From: Porphyromonas sp. COT-290 OH3588
Lineage (GTDB): Bacteria > Bacteroidota > Bacteroidia > Bacteroidales > Porphyromonadaceae
NCBI RefSeq assembly: GCF_000769075.1
Contig: NZ_JRFC01000026.1
Coordinates: 1-38,999, forward strand
Length of the DNA: 38,999 nt
Reading direction: 5' to 3'
Each line of letters opens with the position of its first letter. Position 1 is the stretch's first letter. The notes beneath the pieces are model-generated. The model made no database searches, was not told where the DNA came from, and saw only the letters and a list, made by a program, of their open reading frames with translations. The translations under genes and the position numbers were made by a program. Below, piece by piece: positions 5,946-38,935 of the stretch.

Positions 5946-7043
5946 TTAGAATCTAAAGCAAATGGAGAAAATAGTCAGCCTGATGGCTATGGCTAGACCT
6001 AGCATCATGACCTCGCTACGGCGGTTGATACGTATCGCAACGTCTAGGTCTTCATGTGTGATCTCTCGATCATGTTCCCCGATAAATGGTTTGTCTACCG
6101 TCTGGCCAAAGTAATCGTGAGGGCCACCGAAGCGGCAGTCTAGAATGCCTGCTAGAGCAGCCTCTGGATAGCCAGAGTTGGGGCTGAGATGCTTGCGTCC
6201 GTTGCGCCAGACGAAGCCAACAAGATCTAGGCGGCCTGCTACGATGAGCATGCACAGAGCCGTTAGCCTAGCTGGAATATAATTGACTAGGTCGTCTAGT
6301 TTGGCGGAGAAATAGCCATAGTCGGCATAGCGCTCGTTCTTGTAGCCCACCATGGAGTCTTGTGTGTTGATCATTTTGTATGCGACCATGCCGGGAAGGT
6401 CGAGTAGCGCCCACCAGAATAAGGGAGCAGTGACGCCATCACTGAGGTTCTCACTCAAGGTCTCTAGTGCCGCAGTACGTACCTCCTGCTCGCTTAGGCT
6501 CTGTGTATTTCGCCCAACGATTCGGCCAACTTGCTCTCTCCCTCTCGCTAGAGAAGTCTGCAGGGCCTCAAAGACTAGCTCAACCTCCCGGACGAGTGTT
6601 GTCCCCGAGAGCATCAGGAAAGAGATCAGGCTCGTACAAATGAAGTAAAGGGCCCAAATCCATAGAACCTCTTGAGTACTATCTATAAAGAAACCTAGCG
6701 GATGTATGAGTTCAACCAGAATTTGTGCGACAGAGAAAGTGGCTAGGACTAGTCCGCCATTGTAGACGGCTCCTTTTAGCCGTTTATTAGCTCCCTTATT
6801 CAATCGATGCTCTCCCCAAGCTATAGCATTGCCCATGCCGACGATTGGGTGCCACCTCGTAGGGTCGGCATACCAGCGGTCTAGTATATAGCCATGTATT
6901 ATAGCCAAAGCTACCAAGCAGTATAAGCTACTCTTTAGACCAGAAGATAGCGACGGGTTGATTAGGATTGCTAGAACAGCTAATCCGATAGCGGCTAAGG
7001 TGCCCAAAAGGCAAGTAAGCAGAAGATGTAGAGAGTATCTCAT
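5946..7043 (-). CDS. cbiB: Adenosylcobinamide-phosphate synthase CbiB/CobD
   Basis: A 365-residue integral membrane protein that joins adenosylcobyrate (or cobyrate) to aminopropanol or its phosphate in the late cobalamin pathway. Family hallmarks are the ADPTRWHPIVGMG stretch near residue 60, the SENLSDGVTAPLFWW segment and the YKMINTQDSMVGYKNERY motif. Multiple hydrophobic helices are present throughout. It is slightly longer than most CbiB proteins (about 310-330) because of an extra N-terminal hydrophobic segment. It is the last gene of a minus-strand run, 7 bases after maf. No other cobalamin gene is in the window, so it is either a salvage-pathway enzyme or its partners lie elsewhere. 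Confidence 0.9.
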   Translation of the reverse strand: MRYSLHLLLTCLLGTLAAIGLAVLAILINPSLSSGLKSSLYCLVALAIIHGYILDRWYADPTRWHPIVGMGNAIAWGEHRLNKGANKRLKGAVYNGGLVLATFSVAQILVELIHPLGFFIDSTQEVLWIWALYFICTSLISFLMLSGTTLVREVELVFEALQTSLARGREQVGRIVGRNTQSLSEQEVRTAALETLSENLSDGVTAPLFWWALLDLPGMVAYKMINTQDSMVGYKNERYADYGYFSAKLDDLVNYIPARLTALCMLIVAGRLDLVGFVWRNGRKHLSPNSGYPEAALAGILDCRFGGPHDYFGQTVDKPFIGEHDREITHEDLDVAIRINRRSEVMMLGLAIAIRLTIFSICFRF

Positions 7044-7050
7044 ATCAGAC

Positions 7051-7632
7051 TTAGAAAGTCATTAGGATTGACGACAGCCGATGCACAGGAAGCCCCATAA
7101 CATTATAGAAAGATCCCTCAATTGATTGGATTGCTCTATAGCCAATCCACTCTTGTATGCCATATGCTCCTGCCTTGTCTAGAGGGCGATAATGCTCGAT
7201 GTAGTAATCTATATCTTCTGTAGTAAGATGTGCGAACCTTACTAGTGTTGTACAAGAGAAACGTTCGCATCGCTCCTGTGTCTGCACGCAAACACCCGTG
7301 ATAACTCGGTGTTCCTGTCCACTTAGCTTATGGAGCATACTTTTGGCTTCGGATAGATCTTGGGGCTTGCCCAGCACTTCATCGCCTAGTAGCACGATTG
7401 TATCCGCCGTAATGAGGAGTGTGTTACGATTCATGCGAGGACTATACGCACCCGCTTTTTGCACAGCGAGATACTCGGGGATTGCTTCTAGAGCCAATTG
7501 ATCTGGGTAGCTCTCGTCTAGGTCGGCCATAGCATCTTGCCTGAAGGTAATATCCAGTCCTCCTAATAGCTCCACACGACGAGGAGATTGTGACCCCAAG
7601 ATGATGTCATACTTATTCAGATTTTCCCACAT
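7051..7632 (-). CDS. maf: Maf-family nucleotide pyrophosphatase
   Basis: A 193-residue house-cleaning enzyme of the Maf/YhdE family that hydrolyses non-canonical or excess nucleoside triphosphates such as dTTP and UTP to monophosphates. It shows the N-terminal substrate loop GSQSPRR (S14-R19), the catalytic ADTIV with D77, the GKP loop, and KAGAYGIQEW near the C-terminus. This last motif (AYGIQ) is typical of the dTTP/UTP-specific subgroup. It lies 31 bases after the KdsC-like gene, and the DUF2520-KdsC-Maf order is common in Bacteroidota. Probably part of the same transcript. Confidence 0.93.
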   Translation of the reverse strand: MWENLNKYDIILGSQSPRRVELLGGLDITFRQDAMADLDESYPDQLALEAIPEYLAVQKAGAYSPRMNRNTLLITADTIVLLGDEVLGKPQDLSEAKSMLHKLSGQEHRVITGVCVQTQERCERFSCTTLVRFAHLTTEDIDYYIEHYRPLDKAGAYGIQEWIGYRAIQSIEGSFYNVMGLPVHRLSSILMTF

Positions 7633-7663
7633 ACTACTTGGTAAATGAATCTTTAATTGGATA

Positions 7664-8185
7664 TTACCAGCCGAACCCCTCTCCGAGATCCCACTGATCG
7701 TTGGCCTTGAGCGTTTGTTCTATTACATCACGTACCACGCCATATCCGCCATCACATAGGGAGATATAGCGAGCCACTTGCTTGACTTCTGGAGCTGCAT
7801 CGGCTGGAGCGCAGGGTAAAGCCACTAGGCGCATGATCTCAATGTCGGGGATGTCGTCGCCAATATAAACCATTTGCTGGCGAGTAATGCCGGAGAGTTG
7901 CTCTAGCTCCTCTAGCTTCTCCACCTTATCCTTGGCGCGCATATAGATATATTGGACGCCTAATTGCTCGAAGCGCATACGCATCGCATCACTTTGTCCG
8001 CCAGAGATGACCGCGATTGTATAGCCTCGCTTGACTGCGTACTGCATAGCATATCCGTCTTTTACATTAACGGTACGCATCGGCATCCCCGATATGTCTA
8101 CGGGGCTGACTGTGGCACTCACCACACCGTCCATATCAAGGACGAATGCTTTGACTTTTTTTAGGTCAAAAGGAATACTGCTCAT
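7664..8185 (-). CDS. kdsC: KdsC-like HAD phosphatase
   Basis: A 173-residue HAD-superfamily phosphatase without a cap domain, most similar in layout to KdsC, which removes phosphate from 3-deoxy-D-manno-octulosonate 8-phosphate in the Kdo branch of lipopolysaccharide synthesis. Motif I is LDMDG (nucleophile D17, D19), motif II ISGG, and motif IV GDDIPDIEIM. The length fits KdsC, which works as a tetramer. It lies 9 bases after the DUF2520 gene and upstream of maf. The exact substrate is inferred from family; other small HAD phosphatases of this type act on sialic-acid precursors, and some KdsC relatives are uncharacterised. Confidence 0.85.
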   Translation of the reverse strand: MSSIPFDLKKVKAFVLDMDGVVSATVSPVDISGMPMRTVNVKDGYAMQYAVKRGYTIAVISGGQSDAMRMRFEQLGVQYIYMRAKDKVEKLEELEQLSGITRQQMVYIGDDIPDIEIMRLVALPCAPADAAPEVKQVARYISLCDGGYGVVRDVIEQTLKANDQWDLGEGFGW

Positions 8186-8194
8186 CTTTGTCTA

Positions 8195-9001
8195 TTAATC
8201 GTTAGCTGCATTTTTGAGGTACATCTGTCCGATACTTTGGCTCAGCATTTGGTATAGCTTAGCCAGATTGGGGTTTACTTCGGAGAGCATCGTTTGGTGT
8301 TTGAGCATTGTGGTTTCATCTCCTCTTTTGGCAGGGCCAGTCTGCGCCTCTCGAGCTGTCATTACTTTGACTTTGGCTGCGGTTTCTTCTATCAAAGGCA
8401 GCAGGGCTTTAGGCTCAAGACTATGCCTAAGCATCCAATCCTCCGACAAGGTAAAAAGATGATTGACGAAGTTGCATGCTAGTACAGCTGCTAGGTGTAT
8501 CTGTTGCCTCTGCTCACTACTCGCTTCGTAAACCACGGAAGAGAGAACGGAAGCCAAATGCTCCACTCGCTTCTTAACGAATTCGTTGGCTCCCTCTATG
8601 TAGATTGGTAGACTGGACCAGTCCAACCTCCGCTCCTTGCTGAAGGTCTGTAGTGGGTAGAGAACGCCAGAGGCTGTATGGTAGGGCAACATAGTGGATA
8701 GAGGAACGCTCCCAGCCGTATGGAGCCAGATGCCAGAAGTGGGTGGCATATCTCTCCATACAGCAGGGAGAGCTGAGTCTGATATAGTGAAAATGTAGTA
8801 GTCGGCATCTAGAACGATCTCGCTGGTCTGATCTATAGCTTCAGGCTGAGAGTCCATTGCATCGGCCATCTCACGAGCTTTCTCTAGACGACGACCGTAG
8901 ATCTGTATGAGTACGAAATCCTCTGTTTGGTCTAGGCGTTTGGCCAGATGATAGGCGACGTTGCCCGTGCCCAAGAGGACGACCTTGAGTTTACGCTCCA
9001 T
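8195..9001 (-). CDS. Rossmann-fold DUF2520 protein
   Basis: The preferred start is the ATG at 9001 (268 residues, MERKLKVVLLGTGN). It begins directly at the dinucleotide-binding strand and leaves 16 bases after the nitroreductase stop. The longer frame from 9109 would overlap that gene by 92 bases and adds sequence unlike the family. It has an N-terminal NAD(P)-binding GTGNVAYHLA motif of the F420-dependent NADP oxidoreductase/6-phosphogluconate dehydrogenase type, and a helical C-terminal DUF2520 domain (AAVLACNFVNHL, TGPAKRGD). The TGPAxRGD motif is characteristic. The enzymatic role is not established. Its consistent linkage with kdsC and maf suggests a housekeeping role. Confidence 0.85.
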   Translation of the reverse strand: MERKLKVVLLGTGNVAYHLAKRLDQTEDFVLIQIYGRRLEKAREMADAMDSQPEAIDQTSEIVLDADYYIFTISDSALPAVWRDMPPTSGIWLHTAGSVPLSTMLPYHTASGVLYPLQTFSKERRLDWSSLPIYIEGANEFVKKRVEHLASVLSSVVYEASSEQRQQIHLAAVLACNFVNHLFTLSEDWMLRHSLEPKALLPLIEETAAKVKVMTAREAQTGPAKRGDETTMLKHQTMLSEVNPNLAKLYQMLSQSIGQMYLKNAAND

Positions 9002-31758: not shown

Positions 31759-31789
31759 TTGTTCACTTAACTTAAATAATCTACATTTG
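31759..31789 (+). promoter_or_regulatory. Bacteroidota-type promoter of the TonB receptor operon
   Basis: TTG (31759-31761) and TACATTTG (31782-31789) are separated by 20 bases, matching the -33/-7 arrangement of Bacteroidota promoters. Transcription would start near 31796, giving a leader of about 165 bases before the ATG at 31960. This is the best two-element promoter in the window. Confidence 0.65.
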
Positions 31790-31847
31790 CCACAACTAAA
31801 ACAACTCAAAAGACCAGCTAACTATGTTATTCGGCAACCAGTGTACA

Positions 31848-31944
31848 TAGGTTGGAGGGCTAATGCAGTATACTCAGCTCCATAGTGAGTACCCGAATCT
31901 CCATATATAGAGAGGCGAGGGTGGGTACTAGACACTCCAACTTA
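31848..31944 (+). ncRNA. Potentially structured 5' leader of the TonB receptor operon
   Basis: An outer stem joins TAGGTTGGAG (31848-31857) to CTCCAACTTA (31935-31944) with one G-U pair. Inside, TACTCA (31871-31876) can pair with TGAGTA (31886-31891). Alternatively, AGTACCC (31888-31894) can pair with GGGTACT (31923-31929), enclosing a small TCTC/GAGA stem (31898-31901 with 31910-31913). The last two helices share bases 31888-31891, so they exclude each other, as in a regulatory switch. It does not resemble the cobalamin or other leaders I can recognise. Confidence 0.4.
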
Positions 31945-31959
31945 TTGAACTTAAATTTT

Positions 31960-34407
31960 ATGTCCATAAACCTAAAAATAGCTATCCGAGGCTTGATAGC
32001 CACATCGCTCTTGGGTATTTGCGGTGTACAGCCGTCTTATGCCTCAGCGCCTACATCAATTTCTCATCAAACTAAGCTGCTTAGTCCGTCTTTTCCAGAT
32101 GCTGGCACAGTGTTAGAAAGCAACGAAAATAAGGTGCCCATAGAGCGAAACGTACAGATCCGTGTGCTCGATAAAAAGACACAAGAGCCCGTCGTCGGGG
32201 TTGTCCTCAAAACTGGAGGCAAGGTGTACTACACCGATCTTGATGGTTACTGCACCATACCCAGCGTTCGGAGTTCGAAGCTAGTGCTCTCACTTAGGGC
32301 GATTGGCTTCGATGAAATTGTATCGCAGACCTATACCTTGCGGGCCACTGGGAAACTAATAGTATACATGACGCCCTCGATCGAGAACCTTGGTGCTGTC
32401 TACGTTGAGGCGCAGCGCAAGCATACCACTCAGCTTCAGCAAGCTGTAGCGATAGATACCAAGACACTTGAGAAGAGTCCTGCGCTATCTCTGGCGCAGC
32501 TACTTGAGAAGGTCCCTGGTGTGAGCTCAATCAGTTCAGGTAGTACGATCTCCAAGCCTGTGATCCAAGGAATGCATAGTAGTCGCATTTTGCTAGTCAA
32601 TAATGGAGTGCGGCTAGAGAGTCAGAGCTGGGGGGCCGATCATGCGCCCGAGATCGACCACACGGGGGCGAGTGTCGTGGAAGTTATCAAGGGAGCCGAA
32701 GCTATTCGCTACGGTTATGGAGCTGTCGGTGGTGTAGTACTGTTTAATCAAGCACCTCTGCCATACGGAGCTAAGCGCCCATTGGTTAAAGGGCGTATGA
32801 ATGCTGGATATGCGACCAATGGGCATGGGTACGATGGAGCTGGTTCGCTTGAGATGGTATATAAGCGTGTCGGCATGAGGCTGCACGGTATGTACCAGAA
32901 GGCTGGAGACTACTCTACGGCAGAGTATATCCTCAACAATACGGGTTACAATAACATAAGCTACTCCGGCCTATTGGGTTATAGTGACCCTCGTGTCACA
33001 GCCACGCTATATTCTAGCCTTTACTACTCTCGTAGTGGTGTTTATTACGCCAGCAACATCTCCGATATTGATCAACTATTGGCTCGCTTCTTGGCTGGTA
33101 GACCCAATCCCGATACCTTTCATCCTTTCTCCTACGACATCAAACCTCCCTTCCAGCAGACTCAGCACTTTACGGTCAAGGGAGATCTCAAGTGGCAATT
33201 CCTCAAAGGGCACAACTTGGAGTTCAAGCTATCCTACCAAGACAATCTAAGGCAGGAGTTTGAGAACCGAAAAGTCGACAAGATTAGTTGGATACCTGTG
33301 CAGAACCTCCAGCTCACTACATATAGTGCCGAGGGAGTATGGGATGCAAACTGGACGTCTAATATGAGTTCACAAGTTGGGCTCTCGGCAATGTATCAGT
33401 ACAACTTCAATGTTCCCAATACCAAGCAACCAGCATTCATACCTAACTATGCAGCTCTGACAACTGGCTTCTTCTTGTTGCATAAGTTACGCTGGGGCAA
33501 ACTACAAGGTTCTGCTGGTATGCGCTACGACTATAGAGCTCTCGATGTAGATGGCTATACGAGCCTCTCGAGCTTCAAGTACTACAGCGATTTTAGGCTT
33601 TATAGCAACTTCACGGGGAGTATAGCTGCACACTACCAGATCACGGATAATATAGACGCGCGTGCCAATATCGGATGGGCTTGGCGACCACCCGATATCA
33701 ACGAGCTATACGCCACGGGGCTGCATCATGGCACCTACTGGGTGGTGGGAAATAAGTACCTCAAGAGTGAGCGTGGCTACAAGGCTGTTATGGGCGCACG
33801 CTACCGCAACACCTACCTGCTTATTGAGCCAAGCCTCTTCTACCAGCATGTAGAGAACTATATATATGACAATATAGGTAAGGGGTTAGACCGATTTCAC
33901 AATCACCCTAGTGGCAAGTACCCTAAGTTTATCTATGAGCAGGACAATGCACGCTTCGTCGGGGGGGATCTAAGTGCTACGTTTATACCTCTAGATGGGC
34001 TAAGCATTACGGGGAAAGGGGAGTGGATCAATGCCCGTAACCTAACACAAAATGCTTGGCTCCCTTTCATGCCTTCTGACCGCTATACCTTAGGTCTATC
34101 CTATGACCGTAACTTTGGCTACAAGGATCGTTGGCACTTCTTGTGCTCCCTCGAGGGGGTGTATGTGACCAAGCAGACACGATTCGACCCAGAGAAGGAT
34201 CTGGTCCCTGACTCGCCGGATGCTTATACCTTACTCAATGCTTCGGCTGAGCTAGGTACGACTCTTAGGAGTGGCACTCGAGTTAAATTTATGCTTCTTG
34301 GAGATAATGTCCTCAATGGCTTGTATAAGGAGTATACAGACCGCTTCCGCTATTATGCTCACTCAAGAGGGGCTCAGCTCACCCTAAGAACGATTATAAA
34401 CTTCTAA
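31960..34407 (+). CDS. TonB-dependent outer-membrane receptor
   Basis: An 815-residue outer-membrane barrel that imports a ligand with TonB energy. The start is the ATG at 31960, which begins the signal peptide (MSINLKIAIRGLIATSLLG to YASA); an in-frame ATG at 31885 would bury it behind 25 residues. A carboxypeptidase-regulatory-like domain comes first (about 45-125, NVQIRVLDKKTQEPVVGVV), then the plug (VPGVSSISSG, SKPVIQGMHSSRILLVNNG, VEVIKGAEAIRYGYGAVGGV). The barrel contains WRPPDINELYATGLHHG (about residue 573) and GNKYLKSERG, the pattern of heme/zinc-type receptors (FRAP/NPDL region), and ends in aromatic TIINF. It leads a four-gene operon. Its ligand is unknown; metal or heme is the best guess. 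Confidence 0.92.
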   Translation: MSINLKIAIRGLIATSLLGICGVQPSYASAPTSISHQTKLLSPSFPDAGTVLESNENKVPIERNVQIRVLDKKTQEPVVGVVLKTGGKVYYTDLDGYCTIPSVRSSKLVLSLRAIGFDEIVSQTYTLRATGKLIVYMTPSIENLGAVYVEAQRKHTTQLQQAVAIDTKTLEKSPALSLAQLLEKVPGVSSISSGSTISKPVIQGMHSSRILLVNNGVRLESQSWGADHAPEIDHTGASVVEVIKGAEAIRYGYGAVGGVVLFNQAPLPYGAKRPLVKGRMNAGYATNGHGYDGAGSLEMVYKRVGMRLHGMYQKAGDYSTAEYILNNTGYNNISYSGLLGYSDPRVTATLYSSLYYSRSGVYYASNISDIDQLLARFLAGRPNPDTFHPFSYDIKPPFQQTQHFTVKGDLKWQFLKGHNLEFKLSYQDNLRQEFENRKVDKISWIPVQNLQLTTYSAEGVWDANWTSNMSSQVGLSAMYQYNFNVPNTKQPAFIPNYAALTTGFFLLHKLRWGKLQGSAGMRYDYRALDVDGYTSLSSFKYYSDFRLYSNFTGSIAAHYQITDNIDARANIGWAWRPPDINELYATGLHHGTYWVVGNKYLKSERGYKAVMGARYRNTYLLIEPSLFYQHVENYIYDNIGKGLDRFHNHPSGKYPKFIYEQDNARFVGGDLSATFIPLDGLSITGKGEWINARNLTQNAWLPFMPSDRYTLGLSYDRNFGYKDRWHFLCSLEGVYVTKQTRFDPEKDLVPDSPDAYTLLNASAELGTTLRSGTRVKFMLLGDNVLNGLYKEYTDRFRYYAHSRGAQLTLRTIINF

Positions 34408-34414
34408 GACGATT

Positions 34415-35689
34415 ATGAGAACATTATTTATTGTACTACCCCTACTACTATGCTCCTTGCTACTCTCTAGTTGTAGTGACGAGCGTATGGAATCACTGAT
34501 GAGGGATTTGGTCGTGGCACCTCCCTCCACAATCGAGCGTGACGTCAAGGGGCACGAGCAGATCTACTCGATTCAAGCTATCTTGCGCCTAGCGCACAAG
34601 CGCAAAGACGGTAAAACCTTCGCAGCATACGATATTCCTTCAAGTGCTACGCCCCTGCCGATCTACCAAGAGATAGCCTTTAGCAAAGACAGTAATGGCA
34701 AGATGTCCATCACCTCGGCTCGGAAAGTATTTGATGTGGTCAAGGGTGAGGATATCTACTATGCACTAGAGCTAAAGTACTATGACCTCAATGGTCGTCT
34801 CATCAACCATCAGTTTTCGGGTTATGACCCCAAAGATGAGGCCAACTCTACGCTGTTGGTGCATCAGCATTTCTTTACGGTACAGGGGTATGCCTTGAGT
34901 GGGTATCCGCTTGTCTACCCTATGACGCTCGATAGCATCTATTACGACAAATACCTCTTCCAGCTCGATAGCAAGGGCAATCGTGTACGCGCTACTGCTA
35001 GCTCGCCTTCTATTGTCTATGCTCCCGAGGTACATCAGCCCAATTCACTTCGTTATAGCCTGCCATTAGCTATTAAGGCAACTGAAGTGGCTCTCACGCA
35101 GGAGGCTCAAGTGTCCTATACAGACCCACAGACAGGTAAGCTCTATCAACTCTACAAGACCATTGATGCTTTTGAGTTAAATGGGCTAGTGCCCAAAATC
35201 TTTACTTATGAGTATCGAGATACCGACCCTGTGGAGGAGGTACTAGGCTCTGCTATCGTTGGGCAAGATGATCTAGGGCGCATCCGTGCAGGGATACCCG
35301 TTATTAGGCTTCGCAAGAAGCGTAGCTTAGACCCAGGGACTCCACTAGATGCCTTAGGCTTCAAGGGAGTTCTCAAATTTCATCAGTCTAATATGGCCTT
35401 CCAGATGCGTACCTGCATCAGTCATATCATTACAGCCAACGGTAAGTACGATCTTACTGGGTACGAGAATCCGGGTGGAGTACATCGCTTCAATCAGCTC
35501 TCTCCTGCTTGGAATAGCTTCGATATCGACTACCCAGTCCCCTTCCGGATAATCGCAGATGTAGACCGAGATAAGGACGCGTGTGTGAGGGATATACAGC
35601 GCTTCTACCCCGAGGGGGAGCGAGCAGCTCTAGAGCAGATGCTTTGGGGCGAAGGATACTTCGATCGTATTCCCAAGATAACTATGTAA
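34415..35689 (+). CDS. Lipoprotein A of the receptor operon
   Basis: A 424-residue lipoprotein with lipobox LLSSC (C20), followed by SDER, which fits the Bacteroidota surface-export signal (S-D-E). It starts 7 bases after the receptor stop. It is a paralogue of the next gene. Shared landmarks are a strand pair ending in YDLNGRLINHQF here (YNKQGKLINEEI there), PKIFTYEYRDT (PKLLTYTYRDT), GFKGVLKFHQSN (GLKGHIRFDHDG) and VPFRIIADVDRD (LPIRVFTSTLDS). At the place where the paralogue has a histidine-rich loop, this protein reads LAHKRKDGKTFAAY, so the histidines are mostly lost. No known function; a surface ligand-capture role is inferred from context. Confidence 0.85.
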   Translation: MRTLFIVLPLLLCSLLLSSCSDERMESLMRDLVVAPPSTIERDVKGHEQIYSIQAILRLAHKRKDGKTFAAYDIPSSATPLPIYQEIAFSKDSNGKMSITSARKVFDVVKGEDIYYALELKYYDLNGRLINHQFSGYDPKDEANSTLLVHQHFFTVQGYALSGYPLVYPMTLDSIYYDKYLFQLDSKGNRVRATASSPSIVYAPEVHQPNSLRYSLPLAIKATEVALTQEAQVSYTDPQTGKLYQLYKTIDAFELNGLVPKIFTYEYRDTDPVEEVLGSAIVGQDDLGRIRAGIPVIRLRKKRSLDPGTPLDALGFKGVLKFHQSNMAFQMRTCISHIITANGKYDLTGYENPGGVHRFNQLSPAWNSFDIDYPVPFRIIADVDRDKDACVRDIQRFYPEGERAALEQMLWGEGYFDRIPKITM

Positions 35690-35704
35690 AATAGGATACT
35701 AGCA

Positions 35705-36988
35705 ATGAGTAAATTGTTCAAGATACTTTTCGCCTTGGCGATACTGCTTGGGACCAGCTTCTCGTGCAAGCGCTTTGTTTTTGGGGAGGTTGTGGTTGAT
35801 GAAGATAACAACCCCTTGGTTCAGAAGAAAGTCCCTCGTACGGGAGCAGATCTATTCGAGGCTCCCGTGGTCAATAGTCCAGATTTGCCTAACCCAGACC
35901 CGCAAGGAGCCTTTGCAGATTGGGCTACTTGTCTTGTGATGTTCAAAGAGGGGCATCCACATGGTGGAGGTAAGTTGCATGGCAACTTTGTCTATGCCAA
36001 AGCACCGTGGCGGCAAGAGCAGTTTGCCGTCATTCACAATAGAGCCTCTGGGGTCAAGGTAGAGGTCGATCGTAGTAGTGTCGTGACCTATCTGGAGAAA
36101 GAGGCTGGTAAGCAGGGCCCCAACCACTTTCGTATCATCGGAGGTAATAGTAAACTTTGGGGGCTCTGTTTCTATTTTTACAACAAGCAGGGTAAGCTCA
36201 TCAACGAGGAGATACTCAAGCACTCCGATCAATATCAGATCTTTTTTTCCATCAGTGATCTAGATGATAAGGGGCAGCCATACGAAGTGATGGACGTACG
36301 CTACACTGGCTCCGACCAAGGACCAGTACCATCTAAGTACTTCTCCAGTCGTAAGAGCTTTGATCAGCGTAGGCTCGCCACGCCTAAGTTGTTGACCTAT
36401 ACATATCGAGATACTTGGTTACACGACGACATGGCCGATGGTGTGCGAGAGCTTTTCAACCTCAAGCTACTTCCTCCCTATACGCGCAAAACCTATACTA
36501 AGGCCTATTCCGAGGATCAAGACTATGTTGGCCTCAAAGGGCATATTAGGTTTGACCATGACGGTTCCATAGACAGGCAGAGTGAGTGGCCTATCGTGCG
36601 TACCGATGGCAGGTACTACAATCGCGGGACGAATCTTCTGCCGCACTTTTATCTTGCCATTAGGGTGCTCAAGTGTCCTCCGGGCAAGAAGGCTATCTTC
36701 CCCAAGACAGAGCCTCGAGGAGAGAATAAATTTGTATGTGCGCCTTATTACGAACCCAACGAGGCGTCTTCTTGGCAGGAAATTATAAGAATTAATTTGC
36801 CTATTCGAGTCTTTACAAGCACCTTGGATTCCGACCCTACAGATGACGATCCCAACGAACCCTACTTCGTACACCTAGGGCGAGAAATAGGTTTGTCTGC
36901 ACAGGAGGCCTATAATGCCGTCAATAATATCATCATTCATGGAGATGATGGCTCTGGAGGATCGGGTTATGGTTCATGGTTTCTCTAG
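35705..36988 (+). CDS. Lipoprotein B with histidine-rich loop
   Basis: A 427-residue lipoprotein (signal ends LGTSFSC, then KRFVFGEV; no obvious surface-export signal). It starts 15 bases after its paralogue. Near residue 80 lies FKEGHPHGGGKLHGNF, with three histidines in a glycine-rich loop (H-P-H and a later H), a plausible metal or heme ligand set. The remaining body aligns with lipoprotein A. The tail is acidic then glycine/serine-rich (DPTDDDPNEP, GDDGSGGSGYGS). No characterised family is recognised. Gene order and histidine content suggest cooperation with the receptor. Confidence 0.83.
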   Translation: MSKLFKILFALAILLGTSFSCKRFVFGEVVVDEDNNPLVQKKVPRTGADLFEAPVVNSPDLPNPDPQGAFADWATCLVMFKEGHPHGGGKLHGNFVYAKAPWRQEQFAVIHNRASGVKVEVDRSSVVTYLEKEAGKQGPNHFRIIGGNSKLWGLCFYFYNKQGKLINEEILKHSDQYQIFFSISDLDDKGQPYEVMDVRYTGSDQGPVPSKYFSSRKSFDQRRLATPKLLTYTYRDTWLHDDMADGVRELFNLKLLPPYTRKTYTKAYSEDQDYVGLKGHIRFDHDGSIDRQSEWPIVRTDGRYYNRGTNLLPHFYLAIRVLKCPPGKKAIFPKTEPRGENKFVCAPYYEPNEASSWQEIIRINLPIRVFTSTLDSDPTDDDPNEPYFVHLGREIGLSAQEAYNAVNNIIIHGDDGSGGSGYGSWFL

Positions 36989-37034
36989 TATAATTAATTA
37001 TTCATATATCATACTTAACTAAAACACAAACTAA

Positions 37035-38030
37035 ATGAAACATTTGACGAATAGAGGGCTTGTAGTATTCGCTCTCGCAGCACTAGCACTGTCTAGTTGT
37101 AAGTCCAAAGAAGAACCAGATGACCCCAATCGTAAAAATAACGAGAAGGTAGCAACCTTAGATCATTTGATCATACAAGAGGTTTTCCACTCTGGTAACT
37201 GGCACCCACGTGGTTATCCTACCAAAGACGATGCGTACATCAAGATTTACAACCCCACCAACAAGACGGTATATCTTGATGGTATGGCTTTGTTGATGAC
37301 GCCTTTTAGTAGCAACATTCAACTTGAGTTAGGGCAAGACTGTGACTTCAGAGAAACTCATATTGCTGGCGACAAGGTAATTCAGTTCCCTGGTAAGGGA
37401 GAGGAGTATCCCATAGAGCCTGGTAAGGTAATCCTCGTAGCCCATACAGCCATAGACTATACCAAAGATGTCGAAGATGGTACAGCTGCCAATCCCAACT
37501 CGTTTGACCTCTCGAATGCCAATTTCGAATGGCTCACCAAAGAACAGATCAACGAGGACGATCGTAAGGACAACGAGAAAGTCCCCAATATGTCGGTAAT
37601 TTATTCTGGCAGGGAGTTCTTTGATCAGACTTCCCCCAACTTTACAATTAGTTCAGGTTATGGTTTGATCGCTCTAGTCAAATTGGGGGTGTCAGCCAAG
37701 GATCTTGAGAAAGATGAGTATAAGTGGGAGTGTACGTGGAATAATGCCTCTGGAGGTCACGGCCATGGAGGTAGTGGTACCTACCTCAAGATACCTAATG
37801 CTTGGATCGTTGATGCCGTAAATCTATGTCCCAAAGAGGCATTTAAGTGGTATATCTCTAGCCGCACGATCGACGCTGGGTGGACAAGTGCGATGATTCA
37901 CCGCCCTAGCAAGAAGAAACCTCTCGGCCTAGCGCTTGTACGCAAGCACGATGGCAAGAATTTCGTTGATACCAACAACTCTACCGTAGACTTTGAGGTA
38001 GTGGAACCTAGCCTCAGAGTGAAGAAATAA
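37035..38030 (+). CDS. DUF4876-like lipoprotein
   Basis: A 331-residue lipoprotein with lipobox ALSSC (C22) followed by KSKEEPDD, which resembles a surface-export signal. The N-terminal part (LIIQEVFHSGNWHP, DAYIKIYNPTNKTVYLDGM) matches the DUF4876/lamin-tail-like pattern found beside TonB receptors in Bacteroidota. A glycine/histidine patch, ASGGHGHGGSGTY, lies near residue 240, echoing the HPHG loop of lipoprotein B. It starts 46 bases after that gene and is followed by a terminator, so it is the last gene of the operon. Function is unknown. Confidence 0.83.
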   Translation: MKHLTNRGLVVFALAALALSSCKSKEEPDDPNRKNNEKVATLDHLIIQEVFHSGNWHPRGYPTKDDAYIKIYNPTNKTVYLDGMALLMTPFSSNIQLELGQDCDFRETHIAGDKVIQFPGKGEEYPIEPGKVILVAHTAIDYTKDVEDGTAANPNSFDLSNANFEWLTKEQINEDDRKDNEKVPNMSVIYSGREFFDQTSPNFTISSGYGLIALVKLGVSAKDLEKDEYKWECTWNNASGGHGHGGSGTYLKIPNAWIVDAVNLCPKEAFKWYISSRTIDAGWTSAMIHRPSKKKPLGLALVRKHDGKNFVDTNNSTVDFEVVEPSLRVKK

Positions 38031-38057
38031 GTCCTGCCATAGCTAAAAAAGGACGCT

Positions 38058-38097
38058 GGGGCTGTGCCAAAATTTGTTTTTGATGCGGCCCCTTTTA
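38058..38097 (+). terminator. Terminator of the receptor operon
   Basis: GGGGCTGTGCCAAAA pairs with TTTTTGATGCGGCCCC with several G-U pairs, followed by TTTTATTG. It lies 27 bases past the DUF4876-like stop. Its GGGGC...CAAAA design is the same as in the hairpins at 20034 and 25074. Confidence 0.75.
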
Positions 38098-38175
38098 TTG
38101 TGCATTAGATAGTCGTTCCTTAAATAGTCATTTAACACCTGTTATTCAGTATAATACCTTTCTAAATCCTTTGTC

Positions 38176-38221
38176 AAATCTGCAGGTTTTCGTATCTTCA
38201 AGGTATGAAACTTGCAGATTT
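38176..38221 (+). other. Long hairpin ahead of the transposase start
   Basis: The arms 38176-38196 and 38202-38221 pair almost completely (AAATCTGCAGG... against ...CTTGCAGATTT) with a one-base bulge and a 5-base loop. It ends 3 bases before the transposase ATG at 38225. Such hairpins near IS ends are thought to block read-through into the transposase; it may include the left terminal repeat. Confidence 0.65.
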
Positions 38222-38224
38222 TTC

Positions 38225-38935
38225 ATGATTACAAAGCCCCACAGCACCCCATCATTCTTCAGCAGTCTATCCTACATGCTGAACCAATCGCTCCCGCTCT
38301 ACAAACTATCCGACAAAATAGATTGGGCAAAATTTGACATAGTCTTCTCTCCTCTGTATTGTCAGAATAATGGTCGCCCTGCTAAGCCCATTCGTCTGAT
38401 GTGTGGCTTATTGATTCTCAAACACCTGCGAAATCTCTCTGATGAATCCGTTGCGGAGCAATGGAGTGAAAATGCTTATTACCAATACTTTTGTGGCATG
38501 CAAGAGTTCATCCCTAGTGCGCCCTGTGCCTCTTCTGATTTGGTACATTTTCGCAAGCGCATTGGAGCAAAGGGGATAGAACTCATTTTCCAAGAAAGCA
38601 TTCGTGTCAATAACGAAGATGATGATGACAAGCATCATAACGTTGCTTTTATCGACTCGATCGTTCAAGAGAAGAATATCACTTACCCTGACAGATGCCA
38701 AGTTGCATAAAATATTGTCCGCAAGGTTCTGGATATCTTCCATAAACTAGAGCCACCACTTCGCCAAAGCTACACCTTTGTATTGAAGCGTATCTATCGC
38801 GACCAACGTTTTCGCAATCATCCCAAGAATCACCAAAAGGCACTGAAAGCGGATAGGAAATTGCACACCATAGCAGGCAGATTAGTCCGAGAGCTCAAAC
38901 GCTGCACATTCCTCCTTCCAGCGCAACAATGTTGA
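38225..38935 (+). pseudogene. Decayed IS5-group transposase
   Basis: The N-terminal region (KLSDKIDWAKFDIVFSPLY, NGRPAKPIRLMCGLLILK, LSDESVAEQWSENAYYQYF) is the DUF772 domain of IS5-group transposases. The first catalytic aspartate is in FIDSIVQEKNITYP. Right after that the frame slips: the expected TDAKLHK appears one frame over (38688-38708), the original frame meets a TAA at 38708-38710, and from 38717 it again reads transposase sequence (VRKVLDIFHKLEPPLRQSYT, IYRDQRFRNHPK, AGRLVRELKR). A +1 and a +2 change thus compensate each other. It ends at a TGA at 38933-38935, so the second and third catalytic residues are absent. The start is the ATG at 38225; an earlier TTG (38171) precedes the hairpin. 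Confidence 0.85.

Follow-up and report, generated by a model that had tools for sequence, protein, structure and literature searches.

A four-gene operon of Porphyromonas sp. COT-290 OH3588 (contig NZ_JRFC01000026.1) is best explained as a system devoted to importing a scarce first-row metal across the outer membrane; iron or haem iron is the most likely cargo, and we give this reading a probability of about one half. The window, that is the whole stretch of 38,999 nucleotides (nt) that was analysed, carries the operon at 31760-38099, all on the + strand: a TonB receptor (T) is followed by the paralogous lipoproteins A and B and by a DUF4876 lipoprotein (D). The gene order T-A-B-D is kept among the relatives (TABD loci), the histidine motif of B is invariant, and an iron-regulon-type box precedes the operon in most of these relatives. 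Surface capture of a metal is the best-supported function, with iron or haem as the cargo in most relatives. The features referred to are listed below; residue counts, here and throughout, are for unsplit copies (left out were T of L123, B of L161, T, A and B of L164, T and B of L167, and B and D of L168; L169 is without D).

31760 to 31789, + strand: Bacteroidota-type promoter, with a TTG upstream and the -7 element TACATTTG at 31782-31789, conserved in L042
31960 to 34407, + strand: T, TonB-dependent receptor, ZnuD/haem-receptor-like, with a weak carboxypeptidase-regulatory-like N-terminal extension
32638 to 32643, + strand: T residues D227-H228, aligned to ZnuD Asp99-His100, both in 48/48
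33724 to 33729, + strand: T residues H589-H590, H589 being aligned to ZnuD His499
34415 to 35689, + strand: A, lipoprotein, paralogue of B
35705 to 36988, + strand: B, lipoprotein with an invariant histidine motif
35954 to 35980, + strand: B motif H84-P-H86...H92 (GHxHG...HGN), each His in 47/47
37035 to 38030, + strand: D, DUF4876 lipoprotein
37752 to 37772, + strand: D loop GGHGHGG, not conserved among relatives
38058 to 38099, + strand: intrinsic terminator, hairpin 38058-38092 and then TTTTATT

The compact layout described in the initial annotation was recovered from the gene coordinates, with intergenic gaps of 7 nt (T-A), 15 nt (A-B) and 46 nt (B-D), and the promoter and terminator that it had assigned to the operon were also found. 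The -7 element is conserved in the close relative L042, whose B is 88% identical to that of the window, though TANNTTTGC by itself is no rarer in the window than expected by chance (5 found, 4.59 expected). The terminator hairpin, followed by its T-rich tract, had a z-score of -2.56, with 5/200 shuffles equally or more stable; it was not listed by a simple terminator scan. The likeliest start of T is the ATG at 31960, where a signal peptide was read by eye, rather than the GTG at 31885 given in the list of open reading frames (ORFs). A, B and D each open with a signal peptide of the lipoprotein type, as judged from the sequence. Directly 3' of the terminator lies a DUF772 (PF05598) transposase fragment (window 38171-38710).

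Co-occurrence of the gene set in other genomes, on which the initial annotation had staked its proposal, was borne out. With the B alignment as bait, 50 loci were recovered from named genomes, 49 of them in the order T-A-B-D; in the sole exception, a second and divergent copy in Porphyromonas pasteri, T-A-B is followed by another lipoprotein in fourth place. Among 20 other stretches, T-A-B was present in 15 (11 of which are loci already in the named set) and T-A-B-D in 14. The hosts were Porphyromonas, Prevotella, Hoylesella, Hallella, Segatella, Alloprevotella, two Bacteroides species and several metagenome-assembled genomes. The distribution is patchy: B was found in 6/26 genomes of the window's genus and 2/247 sampled from its order, and a profile search for B, and likewise for A, found 1/296 genomes sampled from the phylum, namely the window's own. 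The PLSDB search for carriage of B on plasmids gave no match. The additional P. pasteri copy (L044/L169) has a B that is 30% identical and a fourth lipoprotein that is not DUF4876. Split or short T, A, B or D frames, due to sequencing error or decay, were seen in L123, L161, L164, L167 and L168, and the receptor gene of L046 (about 6100-8486) is broken near its start by a frame change and an in-frame stop.

A and B, of 424-427 amino acids (aa), fell outside characterised families, as had been proposed. Neither had a significant match in Pfam (best E-values 0.21 and 0.034) or NCBIfam (no match for A, 0.09 at best for B), nor any match in PHROG at an E-value of 0.1. HmuY family matches of A, B or D were absent from Pfam and NCBIfam at E-values up to 1, and the same two databases gave no SusD-type lipoprotein in the operon. 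Profile comparison with hhalign, after removal of the signal peptides, gave a probability of 95.9% over 47 columns for A against B, compared with 0.1-1.6% for the controls A-D, B-D, B-T and A-T, and by this measure A and B are paralogues, in agreement with the initial annotation. The histidine- and glycine-rich loops to which it had drawn attention fared differently: those histidines of B are all kept in 47/47 copies, whereas the D loop did not hold up (H242 in 2/64, H244 in 21/64). B H280 is kept in 46/47, and A H47 and H150 are both present in 50/50. D was confirmed as a DUF4876 protein (PF16215; 116 bits, gathering score 27.9), as first suggested, and has a relative with a solved structure (4q1z).

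The origin of A and B was approached through the wider clade of T-like receptors, which were found in 108/247 Bacteroidia genomes (E-value 1e-70). In 28/33 inspected loci the receptor was followed within 250 nt by an ORF of 130-330 aa; most of these ORFs have a lipobox and measure about 190 aa. Compared directly with A and B, this small lipoprotein family gave non-significant probabilities of 0.6% and 9.6%. A first bridge profile, in which signal peptides and a diverged B copy were included, gave 96.9%; a cleaned profile of three lipoproteins, free of signal peptides and of the B copy, matched A and B at 97.7% each and the small family at 87.3% (E-value 3.8e-6), with 0.3% for the D control. 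Since the cleaned profile matches both sides, A and B probably arose by duplication and enlargement of the common partner lipoprotein of about 190 aa, although the tie to the small family is of moderate strength. These receptor pairs resemble the operon in having a T-like receptor and a partner that bridging proteins link to A and B; they differ from it in that a single small lipoprotein stands where the operon has DUF4876 and two lipoproteins of 424-427 aa. On contig 32 of the window genome, a paralogous receptor stands with lipoproteins of 272 aa and 368 aa (L191; best box score 6.4).

The receptor was classified next to haem and zinc receptors, as in the initial annotation. T has plug and barrel domains (PF07715 and PF00593, both above cut-offs). 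Its best NCBIfam match was TonB-hemin (TIGR01785), at 158.7 bits against a cut-off of 316.85, followed at a lower score by ZnuD (NF038289; 88.8 bits, cut-off 950); the SusC signature TIGR04057 scored 11.1 bits (cut-off 46.2). That the best substrate-type family is haem was counted in favour of the iron or haem reading.

An argument for iron comes from the DNA upstream of T, where the palindrome ATACCTA-N4-TAGGTAT occurs in most relatives. A palindromic motif search 5' of T scored 140.4, compared with 102-109 for shuffles, the null being single-base shuffles run with fewer restarts than the real search. In 13 TABD-bearing genomes the exact pattern TACCYANNNNTRGGTA was found at 49 sites and its reversed control at 4; for a related pattern in 12 other Porphyromonas genomes the numbers were 12 and 0. 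Among the 40 sites inspected, 7 were inside genes. Neighbours of the box included FeoAB, rubrerythrin, a CobN-type chelatase, pyruvate formate-lyase, a C69 dipeptidase, a TetR regulator and TonB receptors, together with pyruvate dehydrogenase (PDH) E1-like and lipoate-ligase-like genes that scored under the NCBIfam cut-offs. Of the five sites in the window genome, one is inside a gene; the others neighbour the PDH E1-like gene, the TonB receptor L083, the ORF L081 (receptor-like by visual inspection) and, at a distance of 454 nt, the ligase-like gene. In the P. catoniae-type genome G021 several sites are repeat-like, and 5 of its 8 were uninspected. A perfect box, ATACCTAGAAGTAGGTAT, also follows one conserved gene in five Porphyromonas genomes (L170, L174, L176, L177 and L180), and in L106 (3947-6849) an iron-type box is followed by a 122-aa His-rich protein and then by a TonB receptor.

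A position weight matrix was built from 27 of the 40 inspected sites, all of other genes; the 13 dropped by hand were the 7 intragenic sites and 6 others, including the pyruvate formate-lyase site. With promoters of 400 nt and a threshold of 9.0 (99% of the null), the matrix scored over threshold in 38/54 TABD promoters and in 30/39 loci that had not been used to derive the pattern. Spacing from the box to a -7-like element was mostly 29 nt (14 loci) or 19 nt (12 loci). The top box-like match in the window (31965, score 13.1) was discounted, as it sits within the first codons of T.

Published expression data were then brought to bear on the box. One genome is an exact match for the published PG1019 primers, with the published spacing of 126 bp, and there the promoter of the DUF4876 gene PG1019 carries a box (score 15.7) that precedes the -7 element by 19 nt. 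According to PMC10434189, PG1019-22 were induced 20.8-214.5-fold by iron depletion, and PG1019-PG1022 of P. gingivalis and BT3630-3633 of B. thetaiotaomicron are given there as strongly iron-regulated loci with a DUF4876 protein beside a TonB receptor. Because the same box precedes the iron-induced PG1019, it is very probably iron-linked. With the box 5' of T in most loci, and also beside FeoAB, rubrerythrin and PG1019, most TABD relatives look iron-controlled. In an excerpt of PMC10470040, the expression of a DUF4876 gene of P. gingivalis shifts by 5.42 log2 units when the haemin level changes, and HmuY shifts the same way, but the excerpt establishes neither the direction of the comparison nor the identity of the gene with PG1019. 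A C10-type peptidase gene further downstream in 7/50 named loci was also counted for iron or haem; it may be linked with the haemoglobin-degrading interpain of P. intermedia.

Several results weigh against this interpretation. At 400 nt, 16/54 TABD loci were below threshold; a search of these 16 over 1000 nt, made after the 400-nt count and with scores unadjusted for the longer search, gave boxes with the 19-nt spacing in L046 (27.2), L133 (18.7) and L164 (16.2), a weaker box in L049 (8.0), and boxes about 790 nt upstream and without 19- or 29-nt spacing in L121 and L125 (18.0 and 16.0). The promoters of the window and of L042 scored 1.0 and 4.1, both under the threshold, and iron control in the window's own lineage is something we infer from the relatives only. 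The PG1019 data concern a different operon, which has DUF4876, a TonB receptor and the box in common with T-A-B-D but another gene order, because the P. gingivalis genome had no B match (A was not searched there). T falls short of the cut-off for each of the NCBIfam receptor families listed. Finally, T residues D227, H228 and H589 align with Asp99, His100 and His499 of ZnuD, the Neisseria zinc receptor that is the best solved relative of T in the PDB; these three ZnuD residues are zinc ligands together with Glu340 according to PMC6288298, the residue offset having been derived from chain numbering and the Glu340 region falling outside the alignment.

This alignment bears on zinc uptake, a possible but tentative alternative in which T would be a receptor of the ZnuD type and B would act as a surface lipoprotein that captures zinc. 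The plug pair D227-H228 is present in 48/48 receptors and the window has His at the third ligand position; in the wider T-like clade, His occupies the 589 position in 32/34 and Glu or Asp the 227 position in 33/34, and an ORF of 90-150 aa with at least five His precedes the receptor in 15/33 loci. An HxH...H motif also suits zinc. However, among TABD receptors position 589 is His in 11/48 and Gln in 33/48, so that His is not kept in 37/48, while the B motif stays unchanged throughout; the iron-type box is found in 38/54 loci, several of them with H589; T scores far under the curated ZnuD cut-off; and PhuR, a haem receptor, likewise has a His aligned with the plug His (H228). ZnuD is not known to have lipoprotein partners of this kind. 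Iron or haem is favoured overall, with zinc a possibility for the window copy, because this has no convincing box and has three ZnuD-type ligand positions.

A split in specificity, whereby H589 types such as the window would take zinc or several metals and Q589 types iron or haem, overlaps the zinc alternative for the window and appears unlikely. In its favour, the box in 400-nt promoters was present in 4/12 H589 loci and 32/40 others (Fisher p = 0.004, kinship being ignored). The contrast is weakened by the H589 locus L046, which has a perfect box farther upstream and whose addition alone raises p to 0.025, and counting the boxes of the H589 loci L121 and L125 would weaken it further. Moreover, seven promoters then deemed box-less gave no alternative operator, their palindromic motif scores being equal to those of shuffles, and the B motif is identical in both types.

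A non-metal cargo, such as a peptide, a vitamin or a glycan fragment, is improbable. The roles of DUF4876 and of A and B are putative, and iron regulation can cover other nutrients; against this, no SusD family match was obtained, T resembles haem, zinc and copper receptors, and the histidine motif of B is invariant.

Under the preferred iron or haem reading, the lipoproteins A, B and D, probably exposed at the surface, would capture the metal or a metal complex, B doing so through its HxH...H loop. The cargo would then be handed over to T, whose TonB-driven transport would carry it into the periplasm. Of the capture complex for metal or heme put forward in the initial annotation, the single conserved operon, the uncharacterised lipoproteins and a plausible capture role were supported.

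Compared with known systems, the operon shares with HmuYR and the haem/haemoglobin receptors of TIGR01785 the combination of TonB receptor and lipoprotein, and that family gave T its best score; it differs in that T is below the cut-off and A, B and D have no HmuY match. An excerpt of PMC10434189 also reports five P. intermedia genes, PIOMA14_I_0804-08, that rose 5.2-33.2-fold in low iron; their description fits the arrangement T-A-B-D-D seen for five genes in P. pallens (L157), but they were not counted. BfpR of F. psychrophilum was considered, likewise by description, as a candidate orthologue of T; it seems to be without a partner, because most of its transcripts stop 83 nt past the stop codon (PMC9331221). 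Neither T-A-B-D nor the box was found described in the portions of the open-licence literature searched, including PMC4222909, PMC6613475, PMC11960050 and PMC12119571. Downstream of the operon, a BspA-type leucine-rich-repeat protein was found in 11/50 named loci; L157 (12166-16045) and six other Prevotella-group loci have both this protein and the C10-type peptidase, and Pfam searches on one of each gave LRR_5, and Peptidase_C10 with Inhibitor_I69.

One doubtful history would have the iron or haem system evolve from a ZnuD-like zinc receptor and lipoprotein pair: the lipoprotein would have been duplicated and enlarged, DUF4876 added, the undescribed iron box gained, and the zinc-ligand His replaced in most lineages, with the window near the ancestral zinc-type state. 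The operon is a four-part uptake module of the Bacteroidales that includes two protein families outside Pfam and NCBIfam. Its box ties a P. gingivalis gene already known to be induced by iron depletion to iron uptake and to iron-sparing metabolism, and the operon family offers a natural series on how one type of receptor changes its metal.

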